From Planococcus plakortidis (GTDB lineage Bacteria > Bacillota > Bacilli > Bacillales_A > Planococcaceae), in NCBI RefSeq assembly GCF_001687605.2, contig NZ_CP016539.2:2262501-2326500 (forward strand): 64,000 nucleotides of DNA, written 5' to 3'. Below the pieces are notes generated by a model. That model ran no database searches. It was not told where the DNA came from and saw only the letters and a list, made by a program, of their open reading frames with translations. Both the position numbers and the translations under genes were made by a program. Numbering within the stretch: the first letter of the stretch is position 1; every line of letters starts with the position of its first letter. This document shows, piece by piece, positions 36,387-54,261 of the stretch.

Positions 36387-36402
36387 GGCGGACCGCTCCT
36401 TT

Positions 36403-37479: not shown

Positions 37480-37526
37480 ATGAAACTCCCCTTTGTTTTT
37501 GATTTTTCCCCGCATGACCCGGACCT

Positions 37527-38705: not shown

Positions 38706-38720
38706 GGCAGTTCCCTCCGC

Positions 38721-39341
38721 TCAGCTTTTTTCATAGATTTCTTCAGTCCGGAACACTTTGACCACCGTCTGCGCCAGGATATACAAATCGAGCCGCAAGC
38801 TTTTGCGGTTGATGTAATCGATGTCGATGTCGATCTTTTCATCCCAGCTCAAGCTGTTGCGCCCGCTCACTTGCGCAAGCCCCGTGACTCCCGGTTTCAC
38901 CATCAGCCGCTGCTTCTGGTAATCATTGTAATTATCCGTCTGGTCGGTGACAGTAGGGCGTGGGCCGATGAACGACATATCGCCTTTGACGATGTTGATC
39001 AGCTGGGGCAATTCATCGATGCTGGTCTTGCGGAGAATATTGCCGACTTTCGTGATGCTGGGATCTCCGTCGAACGGATCGATGCGGTTGCGCTTTTTAT
39101 CCCGCCCGTGCTCCATTGTCCGGAATTTATAGATGGTGAAATGCCGTCCGTAAAGGCCGCCACGCTGCTGCTTGAACATTGCAGGCCCTTTTGACTCGAG
39201 GCGGATCAATAAGGCAACTGTTAGCAATAATGGCGATAAGACCAATAACATCAAAGCGGCAATGACGATTTCGAGAAAGCGTATCACTGCATTCGAGCGC
39301 TTCGGCTGCTTTTTTTCTTCACTGAAATCTCCTATAATCAT
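38721..39341 (-). CDS. Initiating sugar (phosphoglycosyl) transferase
   Basis: A 206-aa PglC/WcaJ-type enzyme that moves a sugar-1-phosphate from a nucleotide sugar to undecaprenyl phosphate, starting the repeat unit. It has one hydrophobic re-entrant helix (FLEIVIAALMLLVLSPLLL), then KQQRGGLYGRHFTIYKFRTM, the catalytic-type KTSIDELPQLINIVKGDMSFIGPRP and LMVKPGVTGLAQVSGRN. It lacks the extra four-helix domain of WbaP-like forms. The start ATG at 39341 follows GAGGAGGGGG. The presence of this enzyme with Wzx and Wzy makes this a lipid-linked glycan pathway. Confidence 0.93.
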   Translation of the reverse strand: MIIGDFSEEKKQPKRSNAVIRFLEIVIAALMLLVLSPLLLTVALLIRLESKGPAMFKQQRGGLYGRHFTIYKFRTMEHGRDKKRNRIDPFDGDPSITKVGNILRKTSIDELPQLINIVKGDMSFIGPRPTVTDQTDNYNDYQKQRLMVKPGVTGLAQVSGRNSLSWDEKIDIDIDYINRKSLRLDLYILAQTVVKVFRTEEIYEKS

Positions 39342-39355
39342 GGGCTGCCCCCTCC

Positions 39356-40537
39356 TCACATTCTCCATAAGGTCACCTTCTCTGGCTTTTCATCCCGCTC
39401 TAGTATGCTTTTGACGTCAAATACGTAACCTGCCTTGCCTTCGAGCAAGCGCTCATATAACTTCCATCCCGCTTTCCGGTAAGCTTCATGCGGCACCGCG
39501 AGTATGACCGAAACCGCCGGAAGCAGTTCTTCCTGCTTCGTCAGCAAAACCCCGCCTGCGCATTCCGACTGGCCCAGTTCAAGCCTGGCATCTGCGACCT
39601 GGACGTCCATCCCGTATTCCCGAAGTTCTGACACGAGGTCGATCACCCCTGCTTCTGCCTCTTCGCTTGCCCCGTCCTCTCTCGTGACACCGAGCACCGT
39701 GATGCGCGCTTCATGGATGATGACTTCGTTCTGGATCAGTTTCTTAATGACCCGCTGTGCCACTTGCCTGCCTTTCTGTTCTCCTTTGCACCAGAATTGG
39801 TCCATGCCGTGCCATGGCACCGGATGGTCCCCGAGCGGATCCGGTTCGATTTTGATAAACCCCCGCCTGGTGTTGGCGGTTTCCAATACGTCATGCGTAT
39901 CGATTCCCTGCTGGTTCAAGGTGAGTGCCACTTCGTTCATCAAAGCGATATTCACTTCCTTTTGCGCAATTTCAAGCAATTGGGCAGCTTCGGCGACACG
40001 GATCGACTTCGCTTTGTAAATGCCCCCTTCGTGGATCGGGGCGAACAGGTCTGCAAGATAATCAGTAACCGGCCCACTTTGCCCTGCGATCACTTTGCGC
40101 ATTTTCGCAAGTTTCCCCTGCGCTTCACTGCTTTGCCACCTTGCCGGGACAAAGCCGACAAAGAATTCCTTCCCGGCAGCGAAACCGGAATGTTGCTCGA
40201 GCAGGGGGATGCAGATTTCCTCGGTTGTACCGGGGTAGACCGGGGCTTCGAAAATGAGTACCGACCCTTTTTTCATCTGCTTCCCAACGATCCGGCAGAG
40301 CTCCGACAGCGCATCCAGTGTATAAGCGGGGCGCTTCGAACCGGTGATCAGGAAGATTCCCGTCTCTGCCAGTTCACCGGCTTGATCGGTAAACACAATG
40401 CCCTTCTCATCGAACCTTGCCCTTTTGGAGCGATCCGGATCGAATACGATGACCGGATAAACGGCGCCGAATGCTGTTGCTGCCAGCAAGCTGTTTTCTC
40501 CGGCCCCAACTATTGTGATTTTCACGTTTTCCATCAT
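39356..40537 (-). CDS. Degenerate nucleotide-sugar dehydrogenase homologue
   Basis: A 393-aa protein with the UDP-glucose/GDP-mannose dehydrogenase layout: Rossmann start ITIVGAGENSLLAA, APVYPGTTEE, FVPARWQ, a central helix EAAQLLEIAQKEVNIALMNE, and a C-terminal UDP-binding-like domain (ITVLGVTREDGASE, VILAVPHEAY). By eye the catalytic residues are lost: the family Lys in AxxxKxxEN is Gln here, and the GGHCIPVDP cysteine loop reads GDHPVPWHG. It may bind a nucleotide sugar without oxidising it, or do another reaction. The start ATGATG overlaps the upstream stop. Confidence 0.78.
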   Translation of the reverse strand: MMENVKITIVGAGENSLLAATAFGAVYPVIVFDPDRSKRARFDEKGIVFTDQAGELAETGIFLITGSKRPAYTLDALSELCRIVGKQMKKGSVLIFEAPVYPGTTEEICIPLLEQHSGFAAGKEFFVGFVPARWQSSEAQGKLAKMRKVIAGQSGPVTDYLADLFAPIHEGGIYKAKSIRVAEAAQLLEIAQKEVNIALMNEVALTLNQQGIDTHDVLETANTRRGFIKIEPDPLGDHPVPWHGMDQFWCKGEQKGRQVAQRVIKKLIQNEVIIHEARITVLGVTREDGASEEAEAGVIDLVSELREYGMDVQVADARLELGQSECAGGVLLTKQEELLPAVSVILAVPHEAYRKAGWKLYERLLEGKAGYVFDVKSILERDEKPEKVTLWRM

Positions 40538-41817
40538 GAGCCCACCTTCTCCCCCTTTTTCCCCGACCATTTCATTTTGGTGAATTCGAGCAATTGCTTG
40601 CTATTCGCTGCAGCGTACGACAGCAATAAGAGCGGGATGATCTTATTGCGGTGGCGCATTGCCGTTCCCGCACTTTGCGTTCCATATGAATAGATGAAAA
40701 CGGTCATCCCGATCACCAGCAGGATGAATATTTTCGTCCTCACCGGCATTTCACTCCGGTAAAGGCCGTACAACGTCGCCCCGATCAAGAACAGGTAGAC
40801 GCTGGAATCAAACAGGAAACTGACGATATCCCCAGCCCCCCGCCAATCGAGCGGAAGCGGCGAAAAGAGGAAGTAGAACATTTTCAGCGGTGCAACGAGC
40901 AGCGCCGCGACACCCGACAGTCCACTGAAGCTTGCAAGATAGACCGACCCGCCTTCAGCGAATATCTCGTAGTCGACCGTGCCACCTTCTTCGGTGACGA
41001 ATTTACTCAAGAAGACATCGGCGTTCTGGAAGACGATGAACGAAATGCCGCCGACAAACAATAAGTACATGAGCGGGATCGAAATTTTCTTCCCCATCTT
41101 GCCACGCTCCAGCCAGACAAAGGACGCGATGTAGACGAGCAGCAAACCGATCATGCCGGTATGGAACAACATCGCAAGAACCGACAGCACGACGGCCCAG
41201 CCGAACTGGAGAAACGAGCGCTCCCCGATCCAGCGCAGGAAGTAATAAAGCGACACTGTCGTGAAGAAAATGATCAGCGCTTCCCGAAGCAGGATGCTCG
41301 ACATGAAAATACTGTTCGGCATGAGAGTGAAGATGAGCAAAGCGATAAAGCTCAATTTCTTCTCGATCTGCAAATAATTCAACGACTTGAAGAGGAATAC
41401 GGCCGAGAACACCCAGCAGGCGATGTTGAGGAATTGCGAGTAAGCCCGCTGTTCACCGATCATATAGTAGAGCCCTGATAAAAATGGCACGTAGACGGTA
41501 TGGGTCTGGTCAAGCGGATATTGGCCATTCGCCACCAGCACGGAAACTTCGTGGAAATATTCTGTATCCGTACCGCTCGAGAAAATCCCGATCGACGGGA
41601 CATACAAATCGATGAATAAAATGACCACCCGCACCGCGAACCCCGCAAAGATGACGAACAGCCATTCATTCTTCAACGTGCGGTATAGATACAAGGAGAT
41701 GGCGACGATACCGGTAAAGACAAGCAGCATCGCATAGCCATCACCCGGCGGAAGAAAATCCTTGATCAGGAACGTCGCGAGAATCTGTATGATAAAAAAG
41801 CCAAGTACATAAATCAT
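40534..41817 (-). CDS. Polytopic membrane protein, probable Wzy-type polymerase
   Basis: A 427-aa protein with about 11-12 hydrophobic helices and one larger loop (VFLSKFVTEEGGTVDYEIFAEGG region). The position between flippase and glycosyltransferase genes and the topology fit an O-antigen/EPS polymerase; GTAMRHRNKIIPLLLL near the C terminus resembles the Arg-rich segment of EpsG/Wzy-like proteins. An early GTDTEYFHEVSVLVANGQ loop also recalls GT-C transferases, so a C-type glycosyltransferase is the alternative. It overlaps the next gene by 4 nt. Confidence 0.68.
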   Translation of the reverse strand: MIYVLGFFIIQILATFLIKDFLPPGDGYAMLLVFTGIVAISLYLYRTLKNEWLFVIFAGFAVRVVILFIDLYVPSIGIFSSGTDTEYFHEVSVLVANGQYPLDQTHTVYVPFLSGLYYMIGEQRAYSQFLNIACWVFSAVFLFKSLNYLQIEKKLSFIALLIFTLMPNSIFMSSILLREALIIFFTTVSLYYFLRWIGERSFLQFGWAVVLSVLAMLFHTGMIGLLLVYIASFVWLERGKMGKKISIPLMYLLFVGGISFIVFQNADVFLSKFVTEEGGTVDYEIFAEGGSVYLASFSGLSGVAALLVAPLKMFYFLFSPLPLDWRGAGDIVSFLFDSSVYLFLIGATLYGLYRSEMPVRTKIFILLVIGMTVFIYSYGTQSAGTAMRHRNKIIPLLLLSYAAANSKQLLEFTKMKWSGKKGEKVGS

Positions 41818-41835
41818 GAATTTCCACCCCTCTTT

Positions 41836-43350
41836 TCAACGTCTGGCAAGCGCCATCAACCGTGCCTTGTAATAGGCGATATCGCTCAATTGCAGCATCC
41901 ACAGCATCGCTGCGTAAACAATGACTCCCGTGGCAACACCGATGAACAAGGCCGGAATATCACCCGTTGCCAGCAAGGAAACCGTATATGCCGTTCTGGC
42001 CGCGATGCCCATGACGATGGCGGCAACGATGCCTTTCGCCAAGTCGATCATCAACCGCCGGCTGTCGAGCGAACCGATTTTCCGTACCAGTGATGCGTAC
42101 AACAGCACCGTACTGACAATCGCGGCGATGCTCGTCGCAAGTGCCAAGCCGTTCAGCCCGATTACACGCGACAGCACCAGGTTTAACGCGACGTTCAAGA
42201 ACATGGCGCCGAATGCGTTGATCATCGGCGTCCGTGAATCTTCCAGGGAATAAAACACTTTCGACAGCACTTCCCTCAGCCCGAACCCAAGCAAGCCGAG
42301 TGCATAGAAGAACAATAAGCCCGTCGTCATCGCAACCGCCCGCTCCTCGAACGCCCCGCGCCCGAACAGGAGCTCCGTAATCTGCCGCGCAAAGATCATC
42401 ATGCCGACCGCGGCGGGAATGACGATCAATGAGACAGTCGTAATGATTTTCCCGACGACATCTTTCAATTCAGCCATATTCTTCCGGACGGCGAGCTTTG
42501 AGATTTTCGGGAACATGACTTTCACGACCGCCAGAACGAAAATCGCCTGGACGAAAAATACGATGCGATGTGCGTAGGTGAGTGCCGAAATCCCGCCCTC
42601 CGCCAGCTGCGAAGCGATGGTGCGGTCTACCAGGATGTTGATCTGGTCCGCCGACACCCCGATGATGACCGGGATGGCAAGCATCATCATCTGCTTCAGG
42701 TCGCGGTCTTTCAGGTTCAACACCAATTGGTGGCGATAGCCGCTTTTGCGGATCGCCGGCACCATGTACAGAAATTGCACGATGACGGCAATGACCGTTC
42801 CGATGGCGAGCATCATGATATCCATTTTCGAACTGACCACAATCGTTGTGATCAACAGCACATTCAGCGGCAAGCCGCTCAGCACCGTCGGCAGGAACCG
42901 GTCTTTTACTTCCAGGTAGCTGGTGAAAATGAAGATCAGGGCCGTGAAATAAAGCGTCAGCGAAATGATCCGCGTGAACAATACCGCGATGCGCAAGGTT
43001 TCGCCTTCGAACCCGTAGGCGAACAATTTGACGATCGGCACCGGGAACACCAAGAGCAGGATGACCAGCACAGTCGACAGCAGCAACACTGCATTCGTGA
43101 CGTTGGCGGTAAAGCGTTCTGCCGCTGCATCGCCCCGCTCTTCACGGATTTTCGTGTAAACCGGGATATAGCTCGCGGCGATGCCCATGCCGATAAACGC
43201 AAAGAACACCGTCGGGATATCGGTCGAGATCAAGTAGGCGTCGGTCAATCCATCGGCACCGTAGAAAAACGATAGGAAGATGTCCCGTGAAAAGCCGAGA
43301 ACTTTCGTGATGATGACGACGAACATGATGGCGATGACTGTTTTTTCCAT
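41836..43350 (-). CDS. MurJ/MviN-family (Wzx-type) lipid flippase
   Basis: A 504-aa protein of the MOP exporter superfamily with about 13-14 helices. It has TKVLGFSRDIFLSFFYGADGLTDAY at the start, RGAFEERAVAMTTGLLFFYALGLLGFG, and REVLSKVFYSLEDSRTPM, all MurJ hallmarks. As the first gene of a glycan operon with its own polymerase and initiating transferase, it probably flips the lipid-linked repeat unit rather than lipid II. The ATG at 43350 has AGAGGTTGA upstream. The operon promoter is at 43489-43520. Confidence 0.88.
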   Translation of the reverse strand: MEKTVIAIMFVVIITKVLGFSRDIFLSFFYGADGLTDAYLISTDIPTVFFAFIGMGIAASYIPVYTKIREERGDAAAERFTANVTNAVLLLSTVLVILLLVFPVPIVKLFAYGFEGETLRIAVLFTRIISLTLYFTALIFIFTSYLEVKDRFLPTVLSGLPLNVLLITTIVVSSKMDIMMLAIGTVIAVIVQFLYMVPAIRKSGYRHQLVLNLKDRDLKQMMMLAIPVIIGVSADQINILVDRTIASQLAEGGISALTYAHRIVFFVQAIFVLAVVKVMFPKISKLAVRKNMAELKDVVGKIITTVSLIVIPAAVGMMIFARQITELLFGRGAFEERAVAMTTGLLFFYALGLLGFGLREVLSKVFYSLEDSRTPMINAFGAMFLNVALNLVLSRVIGLNGLALATSIAAIVSTVLLYASLVRKIGSLDSRRLMIDLAKGIVAAIVMGIAARTAYTVSLLATGDIPALFIGVATGVIVYAAMLWMLQLSDIAYYKARLMALARR

Positions 43351-43488
43351 AGTTTCAACCTCTTTTGCATTCATTCTGGAAGCAACGATCCGCTCCCGAA
43401 GCGGTGGTGCAGCTTATGGCTTGATCCGGCCATCGATATAAAGCATCCTTCCTCAGAATTTGGCGCGGATGGAATCCTGTTGTTGTTA

Positions 43489-43520
43489 ATCCTAGGGGGC
43501 GGAGGTTAAAAGAGGGTTAA
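43489..43520 (-). promoter_or_regulatory. Promoter of the flippase-glycosyltransferase operon with TTAACC direct repeats
   Basis: On the minus strand: TTAACC, 5 nt, TTAACC, 9 nt, TAGGAT. The same arrangement precedes three other genes of this region (47451-47482, 54230-54261, 50094-50125). Repeats one helical turn apart suit an OmpR/PhoB-family activator. Confidence 0.65.
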
Positions 43521-43591
43521 ACTGTTTGAGCGTTTTGAAAAAGCTTTGGGGAATTCAAATATTTTTTAATGGAAGGGAATCTACAAAGATT

Positions 43592-43860
43592 GAGTGGTGG
43601 AGATTGCGCTCCAAGGGGCACGCTTGGGGCCTGCAGGATGCAGGTCATGCAGCTGAAATCGCGACAGGAAGTAGCGATTTTAAAAATAGATAGTGGAGAG
43701 AAGAGTGGGAGAGATTGCACTTCAAGGGGCACGCTTGCCGAGGGGCGGGTGTTGAGCCAATGTGCCGCAAAGAGCGCGACACATTTGTCTCGCCAGCCCG
43801 CTCAGTCCCTCAGGCTTCGGCCCCTTTCCGCTCCATCTCTAGTTTTAGAGAGAAAAGATA
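43592..43860. repeat. GC-rich intergenic repeat family 2 (one partial and one longer copy)
   Basis: The core GGGGCACGCTT occurs at 43615 and 43726 and again at 56082. Each is preceded by GAGATTGC..T or TGCGTTGCA-like sequence, and the longer copies end CGGCCCCTTTCC..CTCC followed by CTAGTTTTAGAG or TTTAGTTTTAGAG. No open frame with a ribosome site is present. Confidence 0.6.
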
Positions 43861-43965
43861 ATCATTTAGCTTTGAAATTAATGTGAATAGTTTTGTTCAA
43901 CCTTGATCATGTCCAGCTAAGCATCAGCACAAGTGGATGATCACGAGAAAATAACATACTTTGTC

Positions 43966-44110
43966 AATTACCAACTTCAGTGGAATGTAAAAGCCGAACC
44001 AAGCATACGGGTGAGCCGGAGTAACGAGACAAGTGTTCTTCTTGGCTCATTGCGGGAGGCCAGCCCCAAGCGGGAGGCGACTCGCTTGGGGAGCAATATA
44101 CAAAGAACAT
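43966..44110. repeat. Structured intergenic repeat family 3, copy A
   Basis: It begins AAGCCGAACC...GGGTGAGCCGG and holds a stem at 44021-44028 / 44046-44053 and a strong stem CCCCAAGCG / CGCTTGGGG (44064-44072 / 44083-44091). Related copies are at 56361-56560 and 58272-58475. Confidence 0.55.
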
Positions 44111-44227
44111 GCCATCTCGCCAGCTAGCCCAACTAAATTTCCCATTACACAAAGATTCCCAACAACAACAAGACATTAAAAAACGCCTGCCAAAAACTTG
44201 GCGGGCGCTTAGGGATTTCATGAAGTT

Positions 44228-45235
44228 TCATACGCTGCTCAATTGCTTGCTGGCATTCGCGCGGTACGCCGGGAAGAATGGTTCGCCCGCGGTGGCTCTG
44301 GACTTTTTGCATAGCTCTCCGTAGATCTCTGCGTTCCAGATTTTCCGGCCGGTGTAGAACCGGAAGCCGGTATGCTGGCCGAATTTCTTCTTGAATTTAT
44401 AAAGCGGATCTTCCGCATCATTCGTCCGGCCGCCACCCGTATGGATGAGCTTGACGCCATTCTCTTTGCCCCAGCGCACGGCGCCGTATTGCAAAACATA
44501 GATCGGCGACAGCTGATGGAAATCGTGGACGGTGCCGGAAAGATGGGTATGCATGATGCCCTCATAGAGAAAGTGCAGCTCTGCCGCAATGACCTGGCCT
44601 TCGTAAATCGCTTCAGCCAGGACGATTTTATCGGCGAATTTCAACAGACAATTATCGAAGTAATCATCGTCGAAGAAGTAATAGGCATCGGCATGGACCC
44701 GGCTCATCGTTTCATAGTAGATTTCCTTGAATCGTTGAAGATCGCCCGGCGCAACGGTGATTCGGCAAGTAACGCCTGCATTCAGCGCACGGCGCAATGT
44801 CTTCCTGGCAGATTTCGAAAATTCGGAAGCTACCGGATCGTCGAAGCCGGCAAGTGTCGTCCCGACAGTTTCACGCTGGAACGTGACCTCGTAGCAATTG
44901 GAAAAATCGCGGGCATTGTCGAAGATCGGATGAAAACGGACAAACTCGCTGACGATGCGCTGGTCCTTGCAGTATTCACGGAACGCAAGCTCAAAATCAG
45001 TGACCAAGTCGGAATGGCAGCCTGTCGCACAGCGGATGATCCGCGGCCCACCATAACCATACGGAGTGATGGCATCATACCACCTCTCCCCATGGATCAG
45101 CATCGGGATTTCCCGCTTGATAAACAGATGCCTCACTTCGCCGTATGCACTCTGGAAGACGAATTCCTCGCATACTCCATGCTCCATTCTTTCGTAGAGT
45201 TTGCCGTAGGCTTCTTCAAAAAATAAGTCATTCAA
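44228..45235 (-). CDS. FemAB-like GNAT aminoacyltransferase homologue (paralogue 3)
   Basis: A 335-aa protein of the FemAB/GNAT superfamily, members of which attach amino acids or acyl groups to wall precursors and sugars. Key parts: FVRFHP, EFSKSARKTLRRALNAGV, FKEIYYETMSRVHADAYYFF, THLSGTVHDFHQLSPIYVLQY, LIHTGGGRTNDAEDPLYKFKKKFG. The TTG start at 45235 (AAAGGA 10 nt upstream) gives exactly the length and first residues of its two neighbours; a GTG at 45244 is possible. It is the last of three tandem paralogues. Acceptor and donor are unknown. Confidence 0.82.
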   Translation of the reverse strand: MNDLFFEEAYGKLYERMEHGVCEEFVFQSAYGEVRHLFIKREIPMLIHGERWYDAITPYGYGGPRIIRCATGCHSDLVTDFELAFREYCKDQRIVSEFVRFHPIFDNARDFSNCYEVTFQRETVGTTLAGFDDPVASEFSKSARKTLRRALNAGVTCRITVAPGDLQRFKEIYYETMSRVHADAYYFFDDDYFDNCLLKFADKIVLAEAIYEGQVIAAELHFLYEGIMHTHLSGTVHDFHQLSPIYVLQYGAVRWGKENGVKLIHTGGGRTNDAEDPLYKFKKKFGQHTGFRFYTGRKIWNAEIYGELCKKSRATAGEPFFPAYRANASKQLSSV

Positions 45236-45264
45236 TGGGTCCACGTCCTTTCATCATACGCCGC

Positions 45265-46272
45265 TCAGACACGGCTCGCTTCCAAATGCTTTTTGCAGCG
45301 ATAGGCCGGGAAATAATCGGTCGCTGCATCCGCCGCGTTCAGTTCGCATAATTTCTTATAAACCGGCTTGTTCCATATTTTCTTCCCGATGTAGAAATCA
45401 AATCGGGTATTTTTCCCGAATTGCCTCTTGAACATCAACAAACTATCGTTCGGGTCGTTGGTCCTCCCGCCGCCGTCATGGATGAGCCGGTAGCCATTCG
45501 CTTTCCCCCAAACCGTCAGCGCGTATTGCAGCACATAGGCAGGATAAGCGTGGTTGTAATCACTTAACGTACCTGACAGATGGGTATGGATGCGATCGCC
45601 GTAAGTGAAGTTCAATCCCATCCCGATCACTTGCCCCTCGAAGATCGCTTTCGTCAACACGATGTGGTCAGCAAAATACTCCAGGCATTCCGTGAAATAA
45701 TCTTCTTCGAAATAATAATAGGCATCCGCATTATTGCGGTTCATCGTTTCATGGTAGATGTCCTTGAATTCGCCCAGGCTTCGCGGATTTTCGATGATCT
45801 CATAGCCCACGCCCGCCTCAAGCGCCTTGCGGATATTTTTGCGTGTCGACTTGGAGAACTCGCTTTGGACCGGGTCTTCGTAGGCCGCCAGATTGGTACC
45901 TACCGTCTCGCGCAAATAACGCACCTCATAGCAATCCTCGAAATCCAATGCATTGCCAATGACCGGATGGAAGCGGACGAATTCACTGATGATGCCGCGT
46001 TCTGCGCAATATTCCCCGAACGTTCGCTCAAATGCCTCCACCAAGTGGGCTTTTCTGCCTTCTGCACATTCTTTGATGATTGGCCCTCCATAGCCATACG
46101 GAGTGACGATGTCGAAATATGGTCCACCTGTTACGGACATCGGAATCTCACGGCGGATGAACTGGTGACGCACACGGCCCAACGGATGCTCAAACTCGAA
46201 CACCTCACACCGGCCATTCTCGATCACTTCGTATAATCGGCCGTAATTTTTTTCGAAAAACAAATCCTTCAC
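45265..46272 (-). CDS. FemAB-like GNAT aminoacyltransferase homologue (paralogue 2)
   Basis: 335 aa, the same fold and motifs as its neighbours: YDIVTPYGYGGP-type strand (FDIVTPYGYGGP), FVRFHPVIGNALDFEDCYEV, EFSKSTRKNIRKALEAGV, FKDIYHETMNRNNADAYYYF, THLSGTLSDYNHAYPAYVLQY, LIHDGGGRTNDPNDSLLMFKRQFG. The start is GTG with a weak ribosome site. It lies 59 bp downstream of paralogue 1 and 29 bp upstream of paralogue 3, so one transcript is likely. The tandem suggests sequential additions of different residues, as in FemX-FemA-FemB; this is inference. Confidence 0.82.
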   Translation of the reverse strand: MKDLFFEKNYGRLYEVIENGRCEVFEFEHPLGRVRHQFIRREIPMSVTGGPYFDIVTPYGYGGPIIKECAEGRKAHLVEAFERTFGEYCAERGIISEFVRFHPVIGNALDFEDCYEVRYLRETVGTNLAAYEDPVQSEFSKSTRKNIRKALEAGVGYEIIENPRSLGEFKDIYHETMNRNNADAYYYFEEDYFTECLEYFADHIVLTKAIFEGQVIGMGLNFTYGDRIHTHLSGTLSDYNHAYPAYVLQYALTVWGKANGYRLIHDGGGRTNDPNDSLLMFKRQFGKNTRFDFYIGKKIWNKPVYKKLCELNAADAATDYFPAYRCKKHLEASRV

Positions 46273-46331
46273 ATGCTAAACCCCATTTCTTCTTTGTGTT
46301 GTTTGTTTGCTCCCCCTCTGGTTTCTCTTTG

Positions 46332-47339
46332 TCAAACCTCGCTTACCTCTTTCGCCGGCCGCTTCCGGTATGCCGGGAAAAACTCATCCGTAACGGCAGT
46401 GTTCGCTTCCCGGCAAAGCCTTCTGTAGACTTCTTCATTCCATACTTTCTGGCCGCTATAAAATGAAAAACTCGTCTGGCGCGCGAATTGCTGCTTGAAC
46501 CGAAGCAAATTATCGTCGGGGCTATTAGTGCGCCCGCCCCCTCCATGGATCAGGCTGATGCCGTGTTCTTTAGCCCAGAGGACTGTTGCATACTGCATGA
46601 TATAAACCGGCGATAGATGATGGAACGCTTCATATGTTCCAGATAAATGCGTATGGATCAAATCATTGTAGGCAAATTGCAGTTCCATGCCGATCACTTC
46701 GCCCCCATAAAGCGCTTCGACGAGCAATAGCTTCTCGCCGAATGACTCGAGCAATTGACTGAAATACTTTTCGCTGAAGTAATAGAATGAATCGGCATGA
46801 TTGCGGTCCATCGTCGCAAAATAAATCCGCTGGAATTCCTTTAGGTCGCGCGGCCCGAGGGTCACACGGAATTCGACGCCATCGCGCAATGCTTTGCGGA
46901 TGTTCTTGCGTGCCGAAGCACTGAACTCCGCTTTTACCGGATCATCGTAAGCGGAAATCGCTGTACCGACCGTATCGCGTAAGTAGCGCACTTCGTAGCT
47001 CTTTTCGAAATCCTGCGCATTGCCGAGCACCGGATGGAAACGGATGAACTCACTGACCACCCTTTCCGATTCGCAATAAGCAGCGAATGCTTCCGTAAAA
47101 GCGGATGCCAGCTCTTCCCGATGTTCCGGTTCACACCCCGTCATCAACGGGCCACCGTATCCATATGGCGTCACGATGTCGAAGTAGCGTTCAGACCCGA
47201 GCAAAATCGGAATCTCCCTCTTGATAAACATATGCCGCACGTGCCCAAGCGGGTGATCGAACTCGAATACTTGGCACACGCCTTTCTCTATTTCTTCATA
47301 CAACTTTCCATAACGTTCATCGAAATAAAGATCCCCCAT
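46332..47339 (-). CDS. FemAB-like GNAT aminoacyltransferase homologue (paralogue 1)
   Basis: 335 aa from the ATG at 47339, the second of two adjacent ATGs behind AAGGAAAAG. It has FDIVTPYGYGGP, FIRFHPVLGNAQDFEKSYEV, EFSASARKNIRKALRDGV, FQRIYFATMDRNHADSFYYF, THLSGTYEAFHHLSPVYIMQY and LIHGGGGRTNSPDDNLLRFKQQF. It is the first gene of the tandem, 110 bp downstream of a promoter of the shared TTAACC type. It lacks the long coiled-coil arm of true FemA/B that contacts tRNA, so an acyl donor other than aminoacyl-tRNA is possible. Confidence 0.82.
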   Translation of the reverse strand: MGDLYFDERYGKLYEEIEKGVCQVFEFDHPLGHVRHMFIKREIPILLGSERYFDIVTPYGYGGPLMTGCEPEHREELASAFTEAFAAYCESERVVSEFIRFHPVLGNAQDFEKSYEVRYLRDTVGTAISAYDDPVKAEFSASARKNIRKALRDGVEFRVTLGPRDLKEFQRIYFATMDRNHADSFYYFSEKYFSQLLESFGEKLLLVEALYGGEVIGMELQFAYNDLIHTHLSGTYEAFHHLSPVYIMQYATVLWAKEHGISLIHGGGGRTNSPDDNLLRFKQQFARQTSFSFYSGQKVWNEEVYRRLCREANTAVTDEFFPAYRKRPAKEVSEV

Positions 47340-47450
47340 CATCTTTTCCTTCTTTCTCGTTGTAGGTTGCGGATGATTCCGCCCCACTGTATTGTGGAGC
47401 TCCTGGCATTGCATGCACTCCTTTCCGAATGGAAGCTTTCATTAGCACCT

Positions 47451-47482
47451 ATCCTAAAAGACCCAGGTTAAAGACAGGTTAA
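47451..47482 (-). promoter_or_regulatory. Promoter of the FemAB-like operon with TTAACC direct repeats
   Basis: On the minus strand: TTAACC, TGTCT, TTAACC, 9 nt, TAGGAT. Identical in spacing to 43489-43520. Confidence 0.65.
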
Positions 47483-47559
47483 ACGCGATGACATTTTTTA
47501 AAAGGCGTATATATAGACAAAAATGCCCGAAAAGGGGACAACATTCTTTGCGAAACTGA

Positions 47560-48096
<537 letters not shown>

Positions 48097-48100
48097 AAAA

Positions 48101-48130
48101 AGAGGCTTCCGGTTGGAGGCCTCTTTTTTC
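48101..48130 (+). terminator. Terminator of hmoB
   Basis: AGAGGC / GCCTCT stem followed by TTTTTT. Confidence 0.7.
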
Positions 48131-48192
48131 TATGGAGAACTATGTGAATACATCGATGTGTTTGAAGAGCACTCCCCCTCCAGATCAAAAAG

Positions 48193-48222
48193 AAAAAACC
48201 GCAGCAGCTGCTGCGGTTTAAC
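48193..48222. repeat. Left copy of a duplicated terminator hairpin
   Basis: AAACCGCAGCAG / CTGCTGCGGTTT followed by AAC. The same hairpin plus AAC is present at about 48647-48674, where the TTTAAC tail contains the stop codon of the ATP-grasp gene. The left copy therefore duplicates the end of a gene that is not there. Confidence 0.75.
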
Positions 48223-48648
48223 AGAGTGTTGAACAAGTCTATGAACAGCTATAAATTAGAGTGAAAATTATTTTTCTACATTTTATAAATCAAAGGTCTA
48301 TCTAAGTATTTGGAGAAGCGTTTGATCGGAAAACATTCTGCTCAATAATGCTACGCATTACTTCGCAAAGATAAGGTCTCCCGTAGGTCGATCTTATCTT
48401 TCCTGCGGGAATAGCGGGTTTGAGAGACCCCACAGGCAATGAATGAGCGAAGCTATGCTGAGCCTATTCATTTGCGACGCATCTGCTGGCAGATGTGGGA
48501 GCAAGCGGGTTTTCTGCGATGCTCGAACGTAGTGAGAGTTGAGCACAAGGGTTTTCGGTAGCGGCCGAGGAGGCTCGATTCCCGCCCGCGGAAAGCGATC
48601 AATAAGCTTCGGAAAATACGGCTTCTTACCTTTCTCGACAGCCTGAAA
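48222..48648. repeat. MITE-like intergenic repeat, copy 2
   Basis: About 427 bp, same orientation as copy 1 and nearly identical along its length (scattered substitutions only, mostly near the ends). It has the same imperfect terminal inverted repeats, and duplicated hairpins flank it. It lies between convergent hmoB and the ATP-grasp gene. The high identity implies recent spread or gene conversion. Confidence 0.8.
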
Positions 48649-48674
48649 AACCGCAGCAGCTGCTGCGGTTTAAC
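48646..48674 (-). terminator. Terminator of the first ATP-grasp gene (right copy of the duplicated hairpin)
   Basis: AAACCGCAGCAG / CTGCTGCGGTTT stem, T run on the minus strand. The outer arm includes the stop codon at 48670-48672. Confidence 0.8.
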
Positions 48675-49923
48675 TTACTTTCTCCCCGGCCAAATAGCGC
48701 GCAAGCACCATATCCTCGCCGCTTTCCGAGATGACTTCGAGCTTCCGGTTGATCTCGCGGATCGTCCCATTCAATTCCTCCATCGTCTGGCAGACGATAT
48801 TGAAACGGCCCAGCATCTGCGAGTAGGAGCCGGTTACAGTGATCTCATCGCCCACTTTACGCGTAGGCACCCAGGAAATGACGGGCGGCAAGTCCATGAT
48901 TTCTTCCAGCCCGCGGATCTCGCGGATCGTTCCCGGACCGAGCAGCACCGATAGATTGCATGACGGGTAGCGCATATAGCCATCATCGAAATTGCTTAGA
49001 TCGTACTGTGAGATGTCTTCCCCCACGGCAAAATCGAGCATCATTTCCAGCAAATTGACATCGGTCTGGCGCTTGATGATCTGGTAATGCTGTTCCCCGC
49101 TCAACCTGTAGCCCATCTCGTAAATGAAGAATTCCCCGTTGTCATAAAGCGACTGGATCAGCACAAGCCCGTTCTTCAGCCCCATGCCTCTCAGCATTTC
49201 ACGGAGATTGGCGTCATGTTGCGCGATGAATTCGGCGAGATGGCTGGACGGATAGATCGTCGCGATGGGCAGGGGCGGGCTTTGGTGTCCTTGGTTATAG
49301 ACAAACCGGTCAGTCACAGCGGATAAGATCACTTCCCCGTCTTGTAATGTGTAGTACATTTCGACACCATGGTTCGTATCGATGAACCGTTCGACAAGAA
49401 CACGGCCGTGGCGCGAAAAGCGTTTGGCTTTTTCGGCCGCTTCGTAGAGTTCCGCTTCATTTTGGCAGACAGTGATGCCTTTGCTGGCGTAGCTGTCGAC
49501 CGGTTTGACGATGACCGGATAGCGAACCGGCACCCCATCTCCTTTTTCGTACTGCTCGATGACCGGCACATCGAACCGCCGGCAGAACTCCTTGAACCGG
49601 TCTTTGTTGGAACTTATCTCCAAATGCTCTTTCGTGGCATAAAACGGCAATCCAAGCCGTTCAGTCAGTAATTGGGCATTCCACGTGTTGATGTCGTCAA
49701 AAGCCGTCAGGACGCCGTCCACTTGCTCTTTTCTTGCCATATTTTCAAGCGCATCAATATCTGCCGTGCTGATATGGTAAGCTTTGTCGGCATTTTTCTT
49801 TGCCGGCGACTCCTCATTATTATCCGTGACGATTGTGTACAGGCCCATGTTTTTAGCGGTTTCGACTACATCGACCATATGCGTGATGCCGCCGAGAATA
49901 AGCAGCTTCTTCTGTTTTCCCAC
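48670..49923 (-). CDS. ATP-grasp ligase, paralogue 1
   Basis: A 417-aa ATP-grasp enzyme; the superfamily joins a carboxylate (as acyl phosphate) to an amine or thiol. The N-terminal pre-ATP domain is KKLLILGGITHMVDVVETAK. The ATP-binding region has FPVIVKP-type YPVIVKPVDSYASKGI and RVLVERFID, and the metal-site end is FIYEMGYRLSGEQHY, where the usual Asn of E-x-N is Gly. A C-terminal domain of about 100 residues carries a VTGSYSQMLGRFNIV motif. The start is GTG at 49923 with AAGGGGGG 8 nt ahead. The closest relative in the window is 51250-52518. An aminoacyl ligation role is inferred from the FemAB neighbours. Confidence 0.85.
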   Translation of the reverse strand: MGKQKKLLILGGITHMVDVVETAKNMGLYTIVTDNNEESPAKKNADKAYHISTADIDALENMARKEQVDGVLTAFDDINTWNAQLLTERLGLPFYATKEHLEISSNKDRFKEFCRRFDVPVIEQYEKGDGVPVRYPVIVKPVDSYASKGITVCQNEAELYEAAEKAKRFSRHGRVLVERFIDTNHGVEMYYTLQDGEVILSAVTDRFVYNQGHQSPPLPIATIYPSSHLAEFIAQHDANLREMLRGMGLKNGLVLIQSLYDNGEFFIYEMGYRLSGEQHYQIIKRQTDVNLLEMMLDFAVGEDISQYDLSNFDDGYMRYPSCNLSVLLGPGTIREIRGLEEIMDLPPVISWVPTRKVGDEITVTGSYSQMLGRFNIVCQTMEELNGTIREINRKLEVISESGEDMVLARYLAGEKVS

Positions 49924-50093
49924 GGGAAACACCCCCCTTATCGATATCCAGGCATTATTGACTATAAACCTCAACATTCATTTGAAAAACATCCGTATAT
50001 CTTGTTCATTTGTAGAACAAATTTACCAACCGGGGTATCGTTTTGTCAATCTAATAATCAGAAAAAAATAATATTTCTTCCTATTTAATATGT

Positions 50094-50125
50094 TTTACTT
50101 CTTTTTAACCCGGAGAGCATAGGGT
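50094..50125 (+). promoter_or_regulatory. Promoter of the fourth FemAB-like gene, weak TTAACC-repeat type
   Basis: TTTACT, 5 nt, TTAACC, 9 nt, TAGGGT. The first repeat is degenerate, but the spacings equal those of the other three promoters of this region. Confidence 0.5.
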
Positions 50126-50168
50126 GAAGACAGACATCATCCCATTTATTCTAAGGAGGCAAAGACCC

Positions 50169-51158
50169 ATGGCAGTACCTACGAAGCAAGCGGTTCCCGA
50201 TATCTTCTTTACGCCCGAATGGAACACGGCATATGCCCGACACGAAGGAGGCGAATTTCACCAATTCGAATGGAAAAGCGCACGCGGGCATATCATCTAT
50301 CCTTTCATCAAACGGCCGGTACCGCTTTTGGAAGGGTGGTTCGATACGATCACCGCATTCGGCCAAAGCGGCCCTGTCATACTCCATGCCGAAGAGGGCC
50401 AGCGCAGCGCATTGGTCGACGAGTTCGATGCAGCATTCCAGGATTTTTGTGAACAGCAGCATATCGTTTCCGAATACATCCGTTTCAGTTCCTGGGTCAA
50501 GAATGCGGAAGATTTCTTTCCGTTATACGGTTTGGACATGCGCGGCATCGTCATGTACATCGATTTGACGGTCGACGATCCTTTCCGCTACGAATTTTCT
50601 TCCGCTGCCCGCCAGCAAGTGCGCCGGGCGTTAAAAAACGGCGTCACGGTGGAATATGATTTCACGGGAGAGACCTTGGACGATTTCTGCCGGCTATACG
50701 CCCTTACCGCTGACCGCAATGAGTTTCCGGATCATTACTTATTCGATCCCGACATGCTGAAGGAATCCTTCCGGCATCTCGAAGGCAAGCAATTCCTGCT
50801 CAACGCAAAATTCGACGGCAAGACCGTCTCGTCTGCATTGATCGTCCACCATGGCGATTATATGCATTATCACCTGGTCGCGAATGACCCCGAGTATTTC
50901 CGCTGTGCCGGCAATTCGTTGATCATGGCGGAAGCTTGCCGTTACGGAAAAGAACACGGTTTTTCCGAATTCCACTTGGGCGGCGCTTCGACCGAAGCCT
51001 TATACCGCTTCAAACGCCGCTTCACCAAGACCGAACCCCTTGAGATCCTCACCGGCAAGCGCATCCGCAATAGTGGCATATACGGCAGGCTGACCGAGCT
51101 GAAACGGCTCCAATGCGGCATCGAAAATACCGGCCACTTCCCTTTATACAGAGGATGA
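50169..51158 (+). CDS. FemAB-like GNAT protein, divergent fourth member
   Basis: A 329-aa protein of the same superfamily as the tandem at 44-47 kb but clearly more distant: FDTITAFGQSGPVILH, IVSEYIRFSSWVKNAEDF, YEFSSAARQQVRRALKNGV, FCRLYALTADRNEF, MHYHLVANDPEYFRCAGNSL (start of motif), FHLGGASTEALYRFKRRF. The GGGRT element of the paralogues is GGAST here. The start ATG at 50169 has AAGGAGG 9 nt upstream. It lies between and divergent from the two ATP-grasp genes, suggesting that it uses or supplies their product. Confidence 0.8.
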   Translation: MAVPTKQAVPDIFFTPEWNTAYARHEGGEFHQFEWKSARGHIIYPFIKRPVPLLEGWFDTITAFGQSGPVILHAEEGQRSALVDEFDAAFQDFCEQQHIVSEYIRFSSWVKNAEDFFPLYGLDMRGIVMYIDLTVDDPFRYEFSSAARQQVRRALKNGVTVEYDFTGETLDDFCRLYALTADRNEFPDHYLFDPDMLKESFRHLEGKQFLLNAKFDGKTVSSALIVHHGDYMHYHLVANDPEYFRCAGNSLIMAEACRYGKEHGFSEFHLGGASTEALYRFKRRFTKTEPLEILTGKRIRNSGIYGRLTELKRLQCGIENTGHFPLYRG

Positions 51159-51199
51159 AAAAAAGCGCCTGACCCGCATTTAGGGTCAGGCGTTTTTTT
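51159..51199 (+). terminator. Terminator of the fourth FemAB-like gene
   Basis: CGCCTGACCC / GGGTCAGGCG stem followed by TTTTTTT. Confidence 0.88.
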
Positions 51200-51209
51200 G
51201 TGACGCTAA

Positions 51210-51240
51210 AAAGCAGCGGGAATCATGCCCCGCTGCCTTC
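51210..51240 (-). terminator. Terminator of the second ATP-grasp gene
   Basis: GCAGCGGG / CCCGCTGC stem followed on the minus strand by TTTTTAGCG. Confidence 0.8.
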
Positions 51241-51249
51241 AGCCATATT

Positions 51250-52518
51250 TTACGGGATCTTCACTTTTGCCGGCTGGAACCGGGCCATGATCATATCGCT
51301 GCCGTCTTCAGAACGGATGTGCAGCGTCCTATAGATTTGTTCGATCGTTTCCAGGAGGGCTTGCTGGGATTCCGCGACCACATTAAAGCGGCCGAACATT
51401 TGCGAATAGGAGCCCGTCCGCTCGATCGTCTCGCCTTCAGACCTGTTAATGACGCAGGAAACGACTTCCGGCATCGCTTTCACTTCCTCCAATCCCCTGA
51501 TGTCCGCAATCCTTCCAGGGCCGAGCAAGATCGGCAAATTGGCGGAAGGATGGGGCATCGGGGCCCCGTCGAATTGTTCGATCGGATGCTTCGCCGTATC
51601 TTTGCCGACCGAAAAGTCGAGCATCATCTCCAGTAGATGGACGCCTGTCTGTTTCTCGATGATGTGATAATGCTGCTCGCCACTGAACCGGAAGCCCATT
51701 TCGTACACATAGATCTTGCCGCCATCGTACAGCGTCTGGATAAACACCAAGCCATTAGTGATGCCGATATTGCGGATCATGTCGCGCACCGCCGGATCGA
51801 CTTCTTCGATATATTTCTGTTGGTGCTGTGAAGGGAATAGCATCGCCACAGGGAGCGGCGGATGTTCTTTGGACTGTTTATGGGTAAAGCGGTCCGTGAC
51901 GGCAGTCAGGACGAGATGGCCATCCCGCGCGGTATAGAACGCCTGGACGCCGATCTCCGAATCAACAAAGCGCTCGAGAATGACCTTGCCCGACTTTGAT
52001 TCCCCGACTGCCTTTTCGACCCCCTTTGTAAGTTCTTCTTCCCGGTAACACACTGTAATCCCTTTGCTCGCGTAGCTATCGACCGGCTTGACGATAACCG
52101 GAAATTCCACCGGCGGAAGCTCGAGATCTTGTGCCGGGTCGCATTCGTATTCCTCGATGACCGGCACGCCGAATGTCCGGCAATAGTCCTTGAAACGGTC
52201 TTTATGCGAAGTGACTTCAAGCTGTGCAGGCGTCGCATAGAACGGCAAATGGAGCGTCTTGCACAGGGTGACTGCATGCCAGGTGTTGATATCGTCAAAA
52301 GCGGTAAACACCCCATCGACCTGTTCCTTCCTGCCGATTTCAGCAAGCTTCTGGATATCGGCAGTACTGATGTCATACGACTGGTCGGCAATTTTCTTCG
52401 CTGGCGAACCGGCCATATTATCGGTGACGATCGTATAATAGCCCATGCGTTTGGCCGTCTCGACTACATTGACCATATGGAATGTGCCGCCAAGGATCAA
52501 AATTTTCTTTTTATCCAT
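51250..52518 (-). CDS. ATP-grasp ligase, paralogue 2
   Basis: 422 aa, colinear with 48670-49923: KKILILGGTFHMVNVVETAK, FPVIVKPVDSYASKGI, KVILERFVDSEIGVQAFY, YVYEMGFRFSGEQHYHII, TGSYSQMFGRFNVV. Two intact paralogues argue for two different substrates or two successive ligations. GTGGAGGG is upstream of the ATG. Its upstream region has a sigma-A-like TTGACC-17-TATTTT but not the shared TTAACC repeat pair. Confidence 0.85.
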   Translation of the reverse strand: MDKKKILILGGTFHMVNVVETAKRMGYYTIVTDNMAGSPAKKIADQSYDISTADIQKLAEIGRKEQVDGVFTAFDDINTWHAVTLCKTLHLPFYATPAQLEVTSHKDRFKDYCRTFGVPVIEEYECDPAQDLELPPVEFPVIVKPVDSYASKGITVCYREEELTKGVEKAVGESKSGKVILERFVDSEIGVQAFYTARDGHLVLTAVTDRFTHKQSKEHPPLPVAMLFPSQHQQKYIEEVDPAVRDMIRNIGITNGLVFIQTLYDGGKIYVYEMGFRFSGEQHYHIIEKQTGVHLLEMMLDFSVGKDTAKHPIEQFDGAPMPHPSANLPILLGPGRIADIRGLEEVKAMPEVVSCVINRSEGETIERTGSYSQMFGRFNVVAESQQALLETIEQIYRTLHIRSEDGSDMIMARFQPAKVKIP

Positions 52519-52666
52519 CCTAAACCCTCCACTTCGCAGTATTTGTACGCAAAAAGCATAAGTCCTAATTCAAAATAACTAATTCACTCCATGACTGTAA
52601 TACAAAAATACCAACTAAAAACAGAAAGGTCAATAAAAATCTGAAAATTCAGGTATAAATTCTCCT

Positions 52667-54190
52667 TTAACTTAAAGGTGTCGTATGCGAAACCATCCAA
52701 CTTTTATCGCTTCTATTGTAGTAAGCGGTAATTTTATAGCCGATTCCCGCCGGTGCGAGCACGCCTTCGCTGCCCGGGCGGTTATTGACTTTGGCGTTAT
52801 CGCAGACAAGCCGCACTTCCTGGCCGCCGCTATGTTCGACGAAAATCTCCACTTCTTCGCTGAATTTATGTGTCGGTGCTGGCGGCAACTTGACGGTTTC
52901 CGTTTCTGATGCGCCGTTTTTCCTGTTGACAGTGATCCGCGGCTCGTCTTTCATATCGAGCGGCGAACGCCCTCCTTCCGGCACGTATTGATGCAGGCGG
53001 CCATTGTAAAGGATGCTCGTCGTATCATATTGGTATTCTTCGTTGTATAAAGACGTAATGGAAGCGAGCCCATCCCCCATGCCATCACGCGGTTTCGCAA
53101 GGAGCGGTTCGATGATGCTGAGCCCCGCTGCATAATCGAGCAAGACATTCGCGTAGCCGTTGTTCTCGAAGTAGCTATGATTGATGCTGCCGGAGTATGC
53201 AGGTGTCGTGTTGATCGCGCCGCTGCCGATGTGGATGCCTGCGATGCCGTTCGAATCGAAGTTGCCGCCCTGGATGTGGTGGCCATAAAGCCCGCGCACC
53301 ATCAGGCCGGTCGCTGCATTGCCGACGAAATGGCAATCATAAATCCCGTAGACGTTATTGTCGCTGCCGCGGTCCGTCTGCAAGCCACAGCCAAGATGGA
53401 TCTTATACGGCGTCCCCGGTGAAATCGTCTCTTTCAAAGGCGGCGACACGGTGATGCTGCGCGGGCCGACTTCATCGATATGGTAAACCGAGCCTTCGCC
53501 TTTTCCTACTTTAAAATAAGCGCCGACGTGGACGTCCCGTGCTGCGGGGTCGAGCTTCATGAATGAAATATTCGTCCCTCTCCCCGAAGCGCCACTGCCT
53601 TCGATCACCGAGCCGTTTTGGGAAAACTGGCACAGCCGGTCGAACACGCAAAGGTTATTATTGCCTTCTTCCAGGATCTGCAACCCGTGGACAGCCCCCC
53701 ACATGAATGCGGCTCCTGAGAATAATTTATCGCGGACGTCACTGGCGACCATACACACTTTCACGAGTTGTGTGTAGCCGTTTTCGGGATCGGTCCCCAT
53801 GAACTGGATGCCTTTGACCGACCCGCTGCCGCCGCGCATGCGCACCAGATAATCCATCGGCTCGGACGGTGCGATTCGCGTCGTCTCCGAACTATGCCCG
53901 ATCCATGAAACAGTCGCGCCCGCTCCCCATTCCGGCACCTCTATAGGTCCGCTGATGCGATACAAGCCCGGCGGAAAGAACAGATTGCCGCCTTTTAAAG
54001 TGCCATAGGCGGCATCAACCGCTTTTTGCAGCGCTTTCCGGTCATCGGCTTTGCCGTCTCCGATTGCCCCATACGCTTTCACGTTGAATAATTGGTCCGC
54101 CGTCTTTTTCGGGCTCCACATTTCGCGGACGATATCTTCTTTATTGCGCGGAGGCAATTCCTTGTCTCTCGCCTTTTTCCAAAATGCCAT
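52667..54190 (-). CDS. Right-handed beta-helix (pectate-lyase-3 superfamily) protein
   Basis: A 507-aa protein. FNVKAYGAIGDGKADDRKAL at about 35-55 is the classic start of the Pectate_lyase_3 fold, and the middle holds repeated coil-forming segments (GIYDCHFVGNAATGLMVRG, GGNFDSNGIAGIHIGSG, INHSYFENNGYANVLL), as in polysaccharide lyases, epimerases and tailspikes. No signal peptide is visible; the start MAFWKKARDKELPP is charged. A C-terminal beta domain follows residue 400. It may act on the cluster's glycan or be exported by another route. It has its own TTAACC-type promoter 40 bp upstream. Confidence 0.82.
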   Translation of the reverse strand: MAFWKKARDKELPPRNKEDIVREMWSPKKTADQLFNVKAYGAIGDGKADDRKALQKAVDAAYGTLKGGNLFFPPGLYRISGPIEVPEWGAGATVSWIGHSSETTRIAPSEPMDYLVRMRGGSGSVKGIQFMGTDPENGYTQLVKVCMVASDVRDKLFSGAAFMWGAVHGLQILEEGNNNLCVFDRLCQFSQNGSVIEGSGASGRGTNISFMKLDPAARDVHVGAYFKVGKGEGSVYHIDEVGPRSITVSPPLKETISPGTPYKIHLGCGLQTDRGSDNNVYGIYDCHFVGNAATGLMVRGLYGHHIQGGNFDSNGIAGIHIGSGAINTTPAYSGSINHSYFENNGYANVLLDYAAGLSIIEPLLAKPRDGMGDGLASITSLYNEEYQYDTTSILYNGRLHQYVPEGGRSPLDMKDEPRITVNRKNGASETETVKLPPAPTHKFSEEVEIFVEHSGGQEVRLVCDNAKVNNRPGSEGVLAPAGIGYKITAYYNRSDKSWMVSHTTPLS

Positions 54191-54229
54191 GATTGTGCCG
54201 CCCCTTTACTTACTGAATGTCGTACGACG

Positions 54230-54261
54230 ATTCTACCTGCTATATGTTAAAAATCGGTTAA
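54230..54261 (-). promoter_or_regulatory. Promoter of the beta-helix gene with TTAACC/TTAACA direct repeats
   Basis: On the minus strand: TTAACC, GATTT, TTAACA, 9 nt, TAGAAT. Same spacing as 43489-43520 and 47451-47482. Confidence 0.65.

Follow-up and report, generated by a model that had tools for sequence, protein, structure and literature searches.

Which regulator reads the promoters of the surface-polysaccharide genes of Planococcus plakortidis? The question is raised by a window of 64,000 nucleotides (C1:2262501-2326500 of the 3,261,818-base genome), in which four promoters share two TTAACC-like repeats and a -10 hexamer. A first-pass annotation of this window had pointed to PhoP or WalR. 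From comparisons of this genome with its relatives, we consider it likely that the shared sequence serves as operator for an OmpR/PhoB-family regulator whose gene lies in the same cluster, and not for PhoP or WalR. The sites probably belong to a two-component regulon of exopolysaccharide and surface-protein genes, which would be activated through them.

Promoter boxes in one 78-kb stretch

Three of the four sites match TTAACM-N5-TTAACM-N9-TAGRRT without mismatches (boxes 1, 2 and 4 in Table 1, all on the minus strand), and the weaker box 3, on the plus strand, deviates at two positions. All were found where the first-pass annotation had placed them, with 9 nt to the -10, and four matches in the window compare with a mean of 0.16 in dinucleotide shuffles, none of 100 of which got to four. 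That annotation had also proposed to scan the whole genome and related genomes. The exact pattern TTAAC-N6-TTAAC-N10-TAGNNT was found five times in the genome, always within C1:2258072-2336516, and its reversed form not at all. With up to three mismatches to TTAACC-N5-TTAACC-N9-TAGGAT, six of seven matches fell in one 78-kb stretch, and the reversed pattern gave only two. Two of these six sites lie outside the window (Table 1). Behind the seventh match (L008), outside the cluster, no correctly oriented gene was seen when six frames were read by eye, and it looks like a chance match. In a scan with a matrix built from sites of relatives, box 3 scored 13.3 bits, compared to 13.8 for the best of 30 mononucleotide shuffles; the other five cluster sites scored 29-41 bits.

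Among the genomes of the genus, the exact box occurs in 32 of 46, with 107 sites in total compared to five matches of the reversed pattern. The promoter of the fourth FemAB gene, which carries box 3, was followed in eleven close relatives that had not been chosen for it. In ten of these, both boxes, their N5 spacing and TANNGT are kept and most of the bases in between vary; the eleventh (L295) has one base fewer between the boxes. Distant FemAB orthologues (L115 and L116, 56-57% identical proteins) also have the box. The boxes of the FemAB tandem and of the beta-helix gene are present in 11/11 of the same relatives, which is no test because the relatives were chosen for those boxes and most of these were known beforehand.

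The architecture of the box was read from 93 distinct sites, a set without L008, the own-paralogue loci, the genome G203 (which has no regulator) and the loci of a wider contig scan. Positions free of the search constraint widened the half-site to TTTAACCT (T0 94%, C6 58%, T7 71%, T11 88%, C17 86% and T18 97%), and A31 in the -10, also free, is kept at 86%. No third box was found upstream in these sites. A TTGACA-like hexamer at 16-18 nt with at least four of six matches occurs in none of the 93 sites, compared to 791 of 5,000 shuffles, a lack that is partly forced because the boxes occupy the place of the -35. At some regulator loci, the -10 reads TAANAT, TACGAT, TATTAT or, at L079, CAAAAT in place of TAGNAT; variable letters are as expected for an ordinary -10. 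The boxes have the form of an OmpR/PhoB-type operator, tandem direct repeats with a period of about 11 bp; that the cluster-encoded regulator binds them is suggested by genomics. What the first-pass annotation had said of the promoters themselves agrees with the sites in the window, the genome and the relatives: a tandem box of this type, a fixed N9 to the -10 without a normal -35, and one regulatory site shared by separate operons on both strands.

A regulator and a hybrid kinase beside the boxes

Next to one of the sites, immediately beyond the left edge of the window, is the gene of an OmpR-family response regulator. Together with a kinase gene it sits between the left edge of the window and the Wzz operon (Table 1). 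The regulator has Response_reg and Trans_reg_C domains (110.5 and 95.3 bits, both above cut-off), and the kinase, a hybrid histidine kinase of the 7TMR-DISM type, has 7TMR-DISMED2 and 7TM domains, two histidine-kinase units and a receiver. The genome holds 13 full-length matches of the regulator's type, the regulator itself included. The paralogue nearest to it, L040, is 42% identical and was taken as PhoP: read by eye, L040 follows a malate-dehydrogenase-like gene and one more gene and precedes a kinase-like gene; in Bacillus the order is mdh-phoP-phoR. Another paralogue, L041, is WalR (449 bits on the curated YycF model). The candidate passes no curated cut-off among the best 25 of 101 NCBIfam models. 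Among the papers listed from one open-licence library, none dealt with this regulator.

The candidate belongs to a group of orthologues, here subfamily A, that is present in 44 of 46 genomes of the genus at 64-100% identity. The phosphoacceptor D59, K108 and the recognition-helix pattern TVKVHIS-LR-K are invariant in 8/8 subfamily A proteins. A second group in other genera, subfamily B, is alike in its recognition helix and C-terminal strand (KVHISNLRRKVE ... YIQTVRGFGYKF in A and SVHMSTLRRKIE ... YIQTVRGFGYIF in B). In a tree from which 11 near-copy rows of subfamily A were dropped and rows with fewer than 190 aligned residues omitted, subfamilies A and B each form one clade at 100 support, apart from PhoP and WalR (100/99 or better). 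They were not joined in this tree with all its rows; in a thinned 58-row tree without six long own-genome paralogues they were joined at 96/92, with a long-branch warning.

Searches of the genus and the family yielded 48 subfamily A genes, of which 42 loci were scanned. A box lies within 1.5 kb of the regulator in 38 of the 42 (29/30 in a first set and 9/12 in a second), and the hybrid kinase adjoins the regulator in 40; the matches at L097 and L099 cover a receiver domain only. One of the four loci without a nearby box (L081) is cut by a contig end. In three genomes (G037, G044 and G045) the subfamily A match has one internal stop, which may reflect a decaying gene or an assembly error.

Taken together, these features suggest how the promoters could work. 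The phosphorylated regulator would bind as a head-to-tail dimer to two TTTAACCT half-sites spaced by 11 bp. For a transcription start some 7 nt beyond the -10 hexamer, the half-sites would fall near -38 to -33 and -27 to -22, in the place of the -35, where sigma region 4 would sit. In this position, the bound regulator could bring in sigma-A RNA polymerase at a TANNAT -10 that lacks its own -35. The hybrid 7TMR-DISM kinase would be the partner of the regulator in a two-component pair. An uncharacterised two-component pair would in this way gain a specific operator and a coherent regulon of polysaccharide export, FemAB-type enzymes and a wall-binding protein.

Box and regulator across the family

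The regulators and a looser exact box (with TANNAT) were searched for in 200 genomes of the family, at cut-offs of E <= 1e-60 for subfamily A, E <= 1e-62 for subfamily B and E <= 1e-80 for PhoP. At these cut-offs, subfamily A was found in 30 and subfamily B in 24 of the 200 genomes, and no genome had both. The box is present in 71 genomes and absent from 129. At least two boxes were found in 37 of the 54 genomes with either regulator, compared to 2 of the 146 without, and at least one box in 49/54 compared to 22/146, which add up to the 71 box-bearing genomes. Outside the own genus, at least two boxes occur in 16 of 28 genomes with a regulator and in 2 of 144 without.

As a control for kinship, the presence of at least one box was compared inside those genera that hold both regulator-bearing and regulator-less genomes; g18 and g12, with regulator-bearing genomes only, and the own genus were omitted. 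The association holds inside three of the five testable genera (with versus without regulator: g14, 9/9 vs 5/19; g13, 6/6 vs 1/10; g3, 2/2 vs 0/27). When the five genera were pooled, the box was found in 18 of 21 genomes with a regulator and 8 of 63 without; 8.4 were expected, and none of 2,000,000 stratified draws reached 18.

Several observations weigh against the assignment of the boxes to this regulator. The lack of a -35 is partly forced, as noted above. The cut-offs for the regulators were chosen after the scores of the paralogues were known, and sites of related genomes are not independent. The result for g18 arises partly by construction, because a box-rich g18 genome supplied the subfamily B query after the box had been seen near the gene; this does not hold for g13, g14 and g3. 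There is no association in g9 (1/3 vs 2/5) and g6 (0/1 vs 0/2). Across the family, the exact box is missing from five of the 54 regulator genomes and occurs at least once in 22 of the 146 regulator-less ones. Among the scanned subfamily A loci, L094, L095 and L097 lack a nearby box, the boxes of L093 and L096 lie 0.5 and 1.2 kb off, and the acidic pair of the receiver is altered in the L097 regulator. Genome G018 has a box before an aminotransferase-like gene (L164, G018:C6:1-7000) and no regulator match at the cut-off. In g14, a site ending in CTAGTAAAAT recurs in nine genomes (G076, G091, G123, G139, G160, G180, G198, G201 and G207), both with subfamily B and, in G123, G180 and G198, without it. 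Another regulator may read this site, because it is also present in those three genomes.

The closest known promoters are those of Bacillus PhoP and Escherichia coli PhoB. According to an excerpt of PMC4415409, a PHO box consists of 11-nt direct repeats in tandem, to which an OmpR-family regulator binds head to tail, in contact with the sigma subunit. If PhoP read our boxes as PHO boxes, the regulon would answer phosphate starvation. The geometry of the own pstS promoter is the same (TTTACA-N5-TTAACA-N5-TTCATA-N5-TCAACA-N9-TATAGT, with TATAGT read as the -10 by eye, and thus the same N9 as here), and the recognition helices are alike (VHVSHLREKIE in PhoP and VHISNLRRKVE in the regulator). However, PhoP is encoded in 200/200 family genomes, of which only 71 have the exact box, and of the 146 genomes lacking the other regulator, 144 carry one box or none. 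The one pstS found in the own genome carries the TTAACA array instead of this box: four repeats, position 6 being A in three of the four readable boxes, compared to two repeats without a third upstream box and with C or T in the TTTAACCT half-site here. With 100 support, PhoP and subfamily A fall into separate clades. Among the genes behind the sites read in the own genome or in relatives, none was recognised by Pfam or by eye as a phosphate gene, and the own targets are polysaccharide and surface genes. We therefore regard control by PhoP as improbable; the box would work in the manner of a PhoP site but probably is not one. Phosphate limitation is not the expected signal, because the box follows a different OmpR-family regulator, and a plausible misassignment to the phosphate regulon is corrected. 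The first-pass annotation had alternatively proposed WalR, bound on the other strand, which would link the genes to wall stress. WalR is an OmpR-family protein as well, with a cell-wall theme and N5 half-sites; the FemAB genes could suggest wall metabolism, and among solved DNA-binding domains the candidate comes nearest to VicR, MtrA, WalR and an unnamed regulator, so that the families are close. Judged from sequence, clade and known half-site only, with no search aimed at the distribution of WalR, this proposal fares worst of all: the candidate reaches 202.5 bits on the YycF model, where the cut-off is 340, WalR is a separate clade at 100 support, its half-site (TGTWAH) does not yield TTAACC, and a regulator that is presumably near-universal in Bacillota fits poorly to a patchy box. 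SaeR of Staphylococcus aureus was considered and is not favoured. An excerpt of PMC5083920 gives its site as GTTAAN6GTTAA, the exact reverse complement of TTAAC-N6-TTAAC, with many surface and secreted proteins among its targets. The box here runs opposite to most Sae promoters (ssl8nm, fnbA and fnbB being the opposite ones in that excerpt), the DNA-binding domain gives 57 bits to SaeR compared to 75 to VicR and 69 to WalR, with MtrA and others also ahead of SaeR, and the kinase here is a 7TMR-DISM hybrid.

Two further explanations concern what happens at the promoter. An alternative sigma factor might use TTAACC for a -35 and TAGGAT for a -10, as the fixed spacing and a -10 beginning with TAG in 6/6 cluster sites (mismatches allowed) could suggest. 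Yet two boxes are kept and not one, both being present at the box 3 promoter in the ten relatives described above; N9 is below and N20 above any usual spacing between -35 and -10; and the third and fourth letters of the -10 change from relative to relative, like those of a sigma-A -10. A sigma factor of this kind is thus very unlikely, only a little less so than WalR. The same regulator could also bind and repress, since boxes covering the place of the -35 could block polymerase there. Unaided transcription would then require another -35, for which the 93 sites offer no candidate (a lack partly forced, as said), and a repressor would not need the distance between box and -10 that is kept at the box 3 promoter. 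Repression is unlikely, if the least so among these four explanations, and activation by the cluster-encoded regulator accounts better for the sites.

Genes behind the sites

Positions of the boxes and genes are collected in Table 1. The regulon in this genome is proposed to serve the export and assembly of a surface polysaccharide, and to comprise the Wzz/AAA_31/Polysacc_synt_2 operon, the flippase/glycosyltransferase operon, four FemAB genes, the beta-helix protein and a secreted cell-wall-binding protein. Operon ends were inferred. The first gene behind the site at C1:2258072 is DUF4870-like (22.1 bits against a cut-off of 25), followed by Wzz, AAA_31, Polysacc_synt_2, a protein without Pfam match and a DegT aminotransferase; Cons_hypoth698, VTC domain and DUF4956 genes follow on the same strand. 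Behind the site at C1:2336485 lie genes for a CWB2 wall-binding protein and for VanZ. The start of the fourth FemAB gene is most likely, as read from its sequence, the ATG at 50169 and not a GTG within the -10.

Table 1. Promoter boxes, regulatory genes and neighbouring genes (window positions unless C1 or a locus is given)
Feature	Position	Strand	Remarks
Promoter box 1	43489..43520	-	TTAACC (43520-43515), N5, TTAACC (43509-43504), N9, -10 TAGGAT (43494-43489); upstream of flippase operon
Promoter box 2	47451..47482	-	Layout as box 1; upstream of FemAB tandem
Promoter box 3 (weak)	50094..50125	+	TTTACT-N5-TTAACC-N9-TAGGGT; upstream of fourth FemAB-like gene
Promoter box 4	54230..54261	-	TTAACC-N5-TTAACA-N9-TAGAAT; upstream of beta-helix gene
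Site outside window	L006:15072-15103 (C1:2258072)	-	Fronts Wzz-type polysaccharide operon
Site outside window	L007:10085-10116 (C1:2336485)	-	Fronts cell-wall-binding protein gene
OmpR-family response regulator	C1:2258249-2258956 = L006:15249-15956	-	Subfamily A
7TMR-DISM hybrid histidine kinase	C1:2258963-2262223		
Flippase operon	35208..43374	-	Operon structure inferred from spacing
MurJ-type flippase	41836-43374	-	Flippase operon
PIG-V-like protein	40534-41817	-	Flippase operon; just below its cut-off
UDP (uridine diphosphate)-sugar dehydrogenase family	39356-40570	-	Flippase operon
Sugar transferase	38721-39368	-	Flippase operon
Glycosyltransferase	37527-38705	-	Flippase operon
Protein without Pfam match	36403-37515	-	Flippase operon
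Glycosyltransferase	35208-36434	-	Flippase operon
Three FemAB-family genes in tandem	44228..47414	-	Behind box 2
Fourth FemAB-family gene	50169..51158	+	Behind box 3
Pectate-lyase-like (right-handed beta-helix) gene	52667..54190	-	Behind box 4
ATP-grasp genes	48670-49977; 51250-52518		With L-amino-acid-ligase C-terminal domain
Cyclic di-GMP turnover genes	29-1765; 58594-60681; L007:5888-7018		
Long intergenic stretches	43590-44110; 48240-48640		
LA2681-like HEPN-domain protein gene	61491-62891		

In relatives, the genes behind the sites were read partly by Pfam (ten downstream proteins) and otherwise by eye, and most of them are surface genes here too. Sites in the genus front UDP-sugar dehydrogenases, an epimerase, a beta-helix and a Big_2 protein and, by eye, FemAB-like and flippase-like genes; behind three genus sites (L158, L162 and L167) no gene was found by the criterion used. 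In other genera, Pfam identified SLH-domain proteins, a UDP-sugar dehydrogenase and a giant kinase, and by eye we saw Wzz, repeat or secreted proteins, lipoproteins and several genes without assigned function, or none. Genes behind dispersed sites were read at 19 distinct stretches, 17 of them in other genera, of which only L107 was run against Pfam. By eye, ten of the 17 front an apparently secreted or surface-bound protein (L102, L103, L105, L107, L108, L109, L111, L114, L117 and L118), L100 fronts the giant kinase and L101 a cupin-like protein, and in five the gene is unclear or absent (L104, L106, L110, L112 and L113). A Pho-regulon reading of these dispersed sites was rejected, no phosphate gene being recognised behind the 17 stretches.

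The subfamily B regulator adjoins a gene whose product has about 1,700 residues, as seen in six regions that were fetched. At L149, this giant protein combines protein-kinase-like, AAA, GAF and histidine kinase domains. Its own promoter carries the box (at most two mismatches) in four of the six regions (L149, L150, L152 and L153); at L154 the box is at the next gene, and at L151 none was found in the region fetched. Overall, the giant kinase lies within 1.5 kb of the B regulator in 18 of 21 locus rows, or 17 of 20 genomes (G106 is doubled), and three B loci of g13 have no giant kinase nearby; four of the 24 B genes have no locus. Quite possibly, though we put this forward tentatively, one regulator subfamily and its box have been kept across seven genera of the family as the sensor was swapped, with the membrane 7TMR-DISM hybrid in one branch (A) and a giant Ser/Thr-kinase-like/AAA/GAF/histidine-kinase fusion, itself under the box, in the other (B). 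The targets would have shifted from exopolysaccharide export towards S-layer-type and adhesin-like proteins, and the input might be the state of surface or cell-cell contact. The box with a related regulator and another kinase in other genera offers a suitable case in which to study a change of sensor with the promoters kept.

Further features of the window were noted around the boxes. On either side of the fourth FemAB gene lies an ATP-grasp gene with an L-amino-acid-ligase C-terminal domain, and neither of the two has its own box in the matrix scan; because they and the four FemAB genes are close together, amino-acid decoration of the polysaccharide is suggested. Two long intergenic stretches (Table 1) are partly repeated in wording, for example GGGGCACGCTTG near 43620 and near 43730. 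A gene for an LA2681-like HEPN-domain protein lies near the right end of the window. Three genes for the turnover of cyclic di-GMP (cyclic dimeric guanosine monophosphate) share the stretch with the surface-polysaccharide operons, encoding PAS-GGDEF, GGDEF-EAL and 5TMR-GGDEF proteins.

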